From NCBI RefSeq assembly GCF_003353425.1, contig NZ_QRAO01000005.1, positions 62,001 through 126,000 on the forward strand: a stretch of 64,000 nt of DNA. The letters are read 5' to 3'. Under the pieces are notes generated by a model. That model searched no databases, had not been told where the DNA came from, and saw nothing but the letters and a program-made list of their open reading frames with translations. Source of the DNA: Marinirhabdus gelatinilytica (GTDB lineage Bacteria; Bacteroidota; Bacteroidia; Flavobacteriales; Flavobacteriaceae). Every line of letters begins with the position of its first letter. The first letter of the stretch is position 1. Positions 40,037-41,364 of the stretch are shown piece by piece. The translations under genes were made by a program, and so were the position numbers.

Positions 40037-41119
40037 TCAGTCATTTATTATTTTCTTTTGGTGGTTAATGGATTCTTGATGGATGGCCTTGTAAAGCTTT
40101 AGGACAAACTCTTCGCTCAAATCGGTTTCTTCACCACGGAGTATCATACGACCCAATACTTCGTTCCACCGTTTTCTCTGTAATATAGCAACATTATGTT
40201 GTTTTTTAAGCCCCCCTATAGTATCGGCTATTTTCATGCGCTTGCCCATCATCTCTACTATCTTGTTGTCGATAACGTCTATTTGGGTTCGCAATGTATT
40301 CAGTTCATTCTGAAACTCTAACGCCGCATCCCCTTTTTTCCGAATACGTAAATCTATGGTCATTTGGTGTAGGGTTTCTGGTGTAATCTGTTGCTTGGCA
40401 TCACTCCATGCATTGTCTGGGTCGTAATGTGTCTCCACCATCAAACCGTCATAATTAAGGTCCAAGGCGGTTTGGCACAGATCGAAAATAATATCACGAC
40501 GTCCGGCAATATGTGACGGATCTAAAATCAACGGAAGATCTGGGAAACGGTTTTGCAGGTCTATGGGGATTTGCCACTCCGGATTGTTACGGTACCGGGT
40601 TTTTTCATACGTAGAGAAACCACGGTGTATCACTCCCAGATTTTTTAACCCAGCTTCGTAAAAACGTTCTACAGCACCTAACCACAGCGGCAAATCCGGG
40701 TTTACAGGATTTTTAATGAGTACTGTTTTATCGGTTCCCTGTAGAGCATCTGCCAATTCCTGTACTATAAAAGGAGAAACGGTAGTCCTTGCCCCAACCC
40801 ACAAGATATCTACATCGTGTTTTAAAGCCAGATCTACGTGGTTGGCATTGGCCACTTCGGTAGTGGTGAGCAAGCCTGTTTCCTCTTTGGCCTTTTGTAG
40901 CCATTTGAGACCCAGGGCACCTACTCCTTCAAAATTTCCGGGACGGGTGCGGGGTTTCCAAATTCCTGCCCGAAATACGGTGGTATCGGTCTCTTTAAGT
41001 TGATGGGCAATCTTAAGCACCTGCGCTTCGGTTTCGGCACTGCAGGGGCCTGCGATTACCAAAGGGTGGTCCAACCCAAAGGTATCCAACCAGTTTCGTA
41101 GTTCTTTTTTGTTTTCCAT
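40037..41119 (-). CDS. Bifunctional 3-deoxy-7-phosphoheptulonate synthase/chorismate mutase
   Basis: First step of the shikimate pathway fused to the branch enzyme leading to Phe and Tyr. Residues 1 to about 260 are a DAHP synthase of the KDOPS-like type (IAGPCSAETEAQ, FRAGIWKPRTRPGNFEG, VIHRGFSTYEK, LILDPSHIAGRRDI); residues about 265-360 are an AroQ-class chorismate mutase (LRTQIDVIDNKIVEMMGKRM, AILQRKRWNEVL). The mutase may serve as the feedback sensor. The start is the ATG at 41119 (MENKKELRNWLDTFG). Upstream lies an attenuator with a Trp-rich leader peptide at 41185-41296. Confidence 0.95.
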   Translation of the reverse strand: MENKKELRNWLDTFGLDHPLVIAGPCSAETEAQVLKIAHQLKETDTTVFRAGIWKPRTRPGNFEGVGALGLKWLQKAKEETGLLTTTEVANANHVDLALKHDVDILWVGARTTVSPFIVQELADALQGTDKTVLIKNPVNPDLPLWLGAVERFYEAGLKNLGVIHRGFSTYEKTRYRNNPEWQIPIDLQNRFPDLPLILDPSHIAGRRDIIFDLCQTALDLNYDGLMVETHYDPDNAWSDAKQQITPETLHQMTIDLRIRKKGDAALEFQNELNTLRTQIDVIDNKIVEMMGKRMKIADTIGGLKKQHNVAILQRKRWNEVLGRMILRGEETDLSEEFVLKLYKAIHQESINHQKKIIND

Positions 41120-41158: not shown

Positions 41159-41183
41159 TTTACTTTTTTGCGGTTTCTTTGCA

Positions 41184-41209
41184 ACAAAAAAAGCCCCAAA
41201 CGGGACTTT
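41184..41209 (-). terminator. Attenuator terminator in front of DAHP synthase
   Basis: On the minus strand AAAGTCCC pairs with GGGGCTTT around the loop GTTT and is followed by seven T. One position is a G-U pair in the minus-strand RNA and would be a C-A mismatch on the plus strand, so the hairpin works only in the direction of the aromatic gene. It lies upstream of the coding region, as expected for attenuation. Confidence 0.8.
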
Positions 41210-41251
41210 ACATAATTTCGTATTGCAACATACCATATCCTCCCCGATGTT

Positions 41252-41296
41252 TCAGTTTGTTATGTGGTGCCACCAAAAGTTGGATCGTGTTGTCAT
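41252..41296 (-). CDS. Aromatic leader peptide (attenuator), 14 residues
   Basis: The ATG at 41294-41296 opens the frame MTTRSNFWWHHITN, ending in TGA at 41252. Phe followed by two Trp codons is the mark of a control peptide for aromatic synthesis. TGGTG and CACCA inside the FWWHH codons pair with each other, giving the pause hairpin and explaining the His codons. About 6-10 bases downstream, CGGGG (41242-41246) can pair with TCCCG, the 5' arm of the terminator, as an antiterminator. When charged Trp-tRNA is scarce, stalling would free this pairing and let DAHP synthase be transcribed. Confidence 0.8.
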   Translation of the reverse strand: MTTRSNFWWHHITN

Positions 41297-41312
41297 TTCT
41301 CTTTATATGATG

Positions 41313-41339
41313 TAAAAATAGCCATTTCATCACAATCAA
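41313..41339 (-). promoter_or_regulatory. Probable promoter of the attenuator and DAHP synthase gene
   Basis: On the minus strand TTG (41337-41339) is followed after 16 bases by TATTTTTA (41313-41320), seven of eight to TAnnTTTG. The predicted start lies about 10 bases before the leader peptide ATG. Confidence 0.45.
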
Positions 41340-41364
41340 GAAACTTTTTAAGATTTTTTATCGT

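Follow-up and report, generated by a model that had tools for sequence, protein, structure and literature searches.

In Marinirhabdus gelatinilytica, the first enzyme of aromatic synthesis is probably made only when tryptophan is short. Within the stretch of its genome analysed here (64,000 nucleotides, hereafter the window), the gene for DAHP synthase (DAHPS) fused to chorismate mutase is preceded by what is very probably a tRNA-Trp-sensing, ribosome-mediated attenuator, derived from the aromatic attenuator of the flavobacterial pheA operon. The comparison with relatives suggests that the same switch once read phenylalanine and tyrosine too, and that it was rewritten after the genes for their synthesis were lost.

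The leader of the DAHP synthase gene

The elements of the locus, all on the minus strand, are as follows:

41312..41343, minus strand: promoter-like region, TTTC (41343-41340), 19 nt, TATTTTTA(C) (41320-41312); predicted Bacteroidetes-type -33/-7
41252..41296, minus strand: leader ORF MTTRSNFWWHHITN and stop; 14 codons, ATG 41296-41294, TGA 41254-41252
41270..41275, minus strand: putative sensing Trp codons TGG TGG (Trp8/Trp9); Trp-Trp in 16 of 18 such leaders
41242..41246, minus strand: CGGGG, predicted 5′ strand of the antiterminator, just 3′ of the leader stop; relatives covary here
41183..41209, minus strand: predicted intrinsic terminator AAAGTCCC-GTTT-GGGGCTTT with T tract (stem 41209-41190); conserved in relatives
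40037..41119, minus strand: gene putatively controlled by the leader, a fusion of DAHP synthase (PF00793) and chorismate mutase type II (PF01817)

The leader codons read ATG ACA ACA CGA TCC AAC TTT TGG TGG CAC CAC ATA ACA AAC TGA, and the CGGGG that follows is complementary to the 5′ arm of the terminator and to the first base of its loop. The leader frame, its Phe-Trp-Trp codons and stop, CGGGG, the hairpin and the T run were all found where an earlier note on this DNA had placed them. A terminator-like site is present at the locus on the minus strand only. At high similarity, the genome has no DAHP synthase other than that of the downstream gene. The gene upstream, encoding a gldA-like ABC-transporter ATPase, is divergent, so that the terminator can end no transcript but that of the leader. 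The window has a single short ATG frame that bears TGGTGG and is followed within 140 nt by a strong terminator, namely the leader itself; order-2 Markov sequences yield 0.02 such cases per 64 kb by chance.

The promoter-like site proposed in the earlier note stands in part. The scan for E. coli-type (sigma-70) promoters gives no minus-strand match at the locus, and a sigma-70-like reading is thereby lost; the position of the site is conserved, since TATTTTTA (41320-41313) lies where relatives have a conserved TACTTTAG or TATCTTTG, shortly 5′ of the leader ATG. The consensus of the Bacteroidetes -7 promoter element is TAnnTTTG, and from position and conservation in relatives we infer that TATTTTTA is an element of this type. 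In its folding, the region is unremarkable: the fold energy is ordinary (z 0.05, single-sequence folding), and the antiterminator of the window, with 5 pairs and -7.4 kcal/mol, is weaker than the shuffled mean of -9.2. The case for a switch therefore rests on the relatives.

Leader codons and aromatic pathway genes in relatives

The sample comprised 80 DAHPS loci from named genomes and further loci from 397 Flavobacteriaceae genomes. A search upstream of the DAHPS genes of relatives, as the earlier note had proposed, recovered the leader frame together with the terminator at 18 distinct W-bearing loci in which DAHPS is its own first gene, namely the window and 17 others, pheA-less. Trp-Trp is present in 16 of these leaders and a single Trp in two; the motifs of relatives include YWWHPF, NWWHV, AWWHM, IWWHY, IWWHI, VWWAQ, NWWLQ, CWWQL and TWWSN, as well as RWRH in two loci, and in most relatives the codon after Trp-Trp encodes His. 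The His-His of the window had been explained by the pairing of TGGTG with CACCA. This pairing is nearly private to the window, most relatives lacking the CACCA complement, and comparison with them rules out such a hairpin as a conserved feature. The leaders of two loci, L026 and L009, are closely similar (SKAWWHM...NIR) despite belonging to DAHPS proteins of different clades, a likeness that suggests recombination or transfer at the locus.

In most of the Flavobacteriaceae sampled, the DAHPS gene lies after pheA or pheA-aspC-tyrA, and an attenuator of the same kind stands 5′ of pheA, with leaders rich in aromatic codons (e.g., MTKQYFWNGFYFYFFFKRGTGLF, MNKLSTYFNFWFFYFTERSGIVM and MLQNVWQGFYFYFYFFSKR). 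The window element shares with it the terminator/antiterminator core and the genomic niche, the divergent gldA-like neighbour being found in many pheA-type loci too, but it lacks both the Phe/Tyr-rich leader and the downstream pheA. Its Trp-only leader in a pheA-less genome points to a derived form, and not to a typical pheA-operon attenuator. Ancestry from a Phe/Tyr/Trp attenuator of the pheA operon, which thus appears, formed no part of the earlier note's reading. Phe/Tyr/Trp-rich leaders upstream of pheA were observed across the Flavobacteriaceae at L007, L008, L013, L049, L138 and about 85 other loci; no Rfam family was found for these pheA-upstream attenuators in the loci scanned, and they suit a new RNA family.

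The content of the leaders follows that of the genomes. The pheA gene (PF00800) is present in 360 of the 397 family genomes, and tyrA in 79 of the 80 sampled genera that have pheA. In the genome of the window, which is 99.94% complete, searches found neither pheA (14/14 control genomes positive) nor tyrA (PF02153; controls positive), and TrpE-type and TrpC genes are present. Where pheA and, as a rule, tyrA occur, the leaders contain on average 5.3 Phe, 3.5 Tyr and 0.8 Trp (75 peptides). Where pheA lies directly before DAHPS, a class in which tyrA is absent from all eight genomes tested, the means are 5.9 Phe, 2.1 Tyr and 1.0 Trp (16 peptides), and at pheA-less loci (tyrA absent where tested) they are 0.75 Phe, 1.06 Tyr and 1.94 Trp (16 peptides). 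The genus of the window holds both states, with two pheA-less genomes carrying a WW leader and one pheA-bearing genome carrying an aromatic leader.

Presence of trpC follows a similar pattern. Of the 13 genomes that have a W or WW leader and are at least 95% complete, 12 contain trpC. No leader was found at L117, L121, L123-L129, L132 and L134, whose pheA-less genomes, 11 in all, have readable DNA upstream of the gene; trpC is present in 4 of the 11, several of which are incomplete. The leader of L072 has no Trp codon, and its genome gives no trpC match. There are exceptions: L026 and L120 carry WW leaders in genomes without a trpC match, and L027 (Aequorivita sinensis) has kept a Phe-rich leader in a genome without a pheA match. 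The leader region of the latter lies about 170-300 nt 5′ of DAHPS, with a terminator about 174 nt before the gene, and it is perhaps an intermediate after recent pheA loss.

It is fairly likely that the codons of the attenuator record the aromatic synthesis of the host, with Phe, Tyr and Trp where pheA and tyrA are both present, fewer Tyr with pheA alone, Trp only where both are missing, and, in several genomes that lack trpC as well, a leader free of Trp codons or none at all. On this reading, two or more flavobacterial lineages would have undergone the Trp-only rewriting in parallel. The distribution of the pheA-less, leader-bearing group on the DAHPS tree requires 5 changes, or at least 4 when well-supported branches only are counted. 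The genus with MTNNNTWWSNSKFYLKR (L130 and L131) lies far from the clade of the window with strong support, so that at least two of the Trp-only rewrites look independent; a loss followed by transfer or regain could mimic additional ones. In a tree-based sign test of pheA loss against the Trp-only leader, run on independent pairs, all three informative pairs agree (p 0.25), too few pairs for significance.

A leader that still senses several aromatic amino acids, through Phe7 together with Trp8-9 and in the manner of the ancestral pheA leader, would fit the TTT immediately 5′ of TGG TGG in the window and the Phe/Tyr-rich character of the ancestral leaders. This is nevertheless unlikely, as relatives vary at the position preceding WW, with F, Y, N, V, A, I, C or T there and no constant Phe, and as the genome of the window has neither pheA nor tyrA, so that induction of DAHPS would not relieve a shortage of phenylalanine.

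Alternative pairing and a model for the switch

The loci of the Trp type share a common order, with the leader followed by a GGGA-like strand and by a terminator of the AGUCCC type. The covariance analysis called for in the earlier note finds the antiterminator pairing both conserved and covarying. The base 5′ of GGG and the base 3′ of CCC form a pair (C-G, U-A or A-U) in 12 of 14 sequences, where 6.9 are expected at random (permutation p=0.0003), and in 9 of 11 after thinning of close relatives (p 0.0025), both p-values ignoring kinship beyond the thinning. The 3′ partner lies in the terminator loop and is unpaired in the terminator, and hence the covariation backs the alternative pairing itself. 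When strands were swapped between all Trp-only loci, 10 of 2000 permutations paired as well as the cognate strands. The figure was 283 of 2000, and not significant, when the test was confined to the main Trp-only lineage, whose core does not vary. For the pheA-type loci, cognate strands reach -12.1 kcal/mol versus -8.8 for swapped ones, and none of 2000 permutations is as good. Mutually exclusive pairing of antiterminator and terminator is found across the relatives, and is weak in the window alone.

The spacing of these parts was examined with a footprint model in which the edge of the ribosome is assumed to lie 12 nt beyond the first A-site base. In the window, a ribosome at Trp8 would end at leader position 34 and one at the stop codon at position 55, CGGGG occupying positions 50-54. 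A ribosome stalled at Trp would leave the antiterminator strand clear of its edge in every one of the 16 Trp-type leaders modelled apart from L006, for which no clear antiterminator was seen in the model. A ribosome at the stop codon would cover this strand wholly, or partly in a few cases (e.g., L088 and L120), and with the strand hidden the predicted fold at the Trp-type loci modelled is the terminator. The hallmarks of a leader-peptide attenuator, namely an ORF with codons for the regulated amino acid, a terminator before the gene and suitable spacing, are found at the locus. The observation made in the earlier note is confirmed, and its core interpretation, a Trp-codon attenuator of the DAHP synthase/chorismate mutase gene, is supported by the conserved leaders, the terminator, the covarying antiterminator and the footprint arithmetic.

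In the proposed model, charged tRNA-Trp would be the signal, and the genome's sole DAHP synthase/chorismate mutase gene the target. With ample tryptophan, the ribosome would reach the leader stop and cover CGGGG, the terminator would form and transcription would end near 41185. When tryptophan is short, the ribosome would stall at Trp8/Trp9, leaving CGGGG free to pair with UCCCG of the terminator 5′ arm, so that no terminator would form and DAHPS would be transcribed. As for its origin, an ancestral Phe/Tyr/Trp-rich attenuator of pheA-(aspC-tyrA)-DAHPS would have turned to Trp-only codons in lineages without pheA and tyrA, in which the known genes would still lead from chorismate to a single aromatic amino acid, tryptophan.

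A constitutive terminator accompanied by a translated small protein, with no switching, would account for the ordinary fold energy of the region and for the weakness of the window's own antiterminator. It is highly improbable, since the divergent upstream gene leaves no other gene for the terminator to end, and since the relatives retain the Trp codons along with both the antiterminator strand and the terminator, and show covariation in the pairing. Least probable of all is a different RNA device, be it a T-box, a riboswitch or the described Bacteroid-trp RNA, which shares amino acid and phylum and of which a leader of this kind stands at the trp operon of the genome, as no Rfam family matches at gathering threshold in the window or in the leaders of relatives, nor do T-box and Bacteroid-trp (RF01692) at a permissive threshold at the DAHPS leader.

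Comparison with known attenuators

In E. coli trpL and pheL, whether the antiterminator or the terminator forms depends on where the ribosome stands relative to Trp or Phe codons, and the DAHP synthase genes of this bacterium are controlled by repressors. Unlike in trpL and pheL, the stop-codon ribosome in the window appears to cover the antiterminator strand directly; no separate pause hairpin (1:2) was identified in the window element.

Within the Flavobacteriaceae, the parts considered here of a transcriptome study of F. psychrophilum point to possible leader-peptide attenuation at amino-acid operons, and report a conserved 5′ structured element upstream of pheA, without an Rfam match, in this species and other members of the family (PMC9723704). 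In those parts, that element, from the same family and operon, is named without a description of peptide or mechanism (PMC9723704). The window element differs from it in lying directly before DAHPS, in being Trp-only and in belonging to a genome without pheA; an element of the F. psychrophilum type is very likely its ancestor. The Bacteroid-trp RNA (RF01692; PMC2864571), which has been recorded 5′ of the trp operon in F. psychrophilum (PMC6414381), is like the window element a Trp-related attenuator of Bacteroidetes, but the regulated gene differs. Outside the phylum, a leader-peptide attenuator has been predicted before aroF of Corynebacterium glutamicum, one of two DAHP synthases in that organism, with Phe-Tyr-Phe codons (PMC4046766). 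A literature search, with subscription papers and supplements outside its range, found only PMC9723704 and the Bacteroid-trp papers on an aromatic or DAHPS attenuator in Bacteroidetes. Ribosome-mediated attenuation is a known mechanism, and what looks new is its Trp-only recoding on a DAHP synthase.

Implications for aromatic synthesis in the Flavobacteriaceae

The genome of the window carries a second Trp leader, MRNTNTHSWWWNTLRKMS (WWW), with a terminator directly before trpE (G000:C8:64004-64118, locus L083). It scores 46.4 bits with the Bacteroid-trp model (cut-off 49), the only near-cut-off match of the genome. Given this separate leader before trpE, tryptophan would control the pathway at two steps. 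The chorismate mutase domain of the DAHPS gene (window 40037-40300) keeps 36 of 37 conserved positions, despite pheA and tyrA not having been found; its retention may reflect a regulatory role, or prephenate may be used by an enzyme that has escaped recognition.

For the Flavobacteriaceae, the result predicts that the entry step of aromatic synthesis is controlled at transcription, which raises the question of how a single DAHP synthase, shut by tryptophan, is to be squared with the supply of chorismate for folate and menaquinone. The regulator would be one whose sensed amino acids track the loss of pathways. Its leader peptides would form a readable record of auxotrophy, and the family a natural series in which to study how the specificity of a sensor is rewritten by a few codons.
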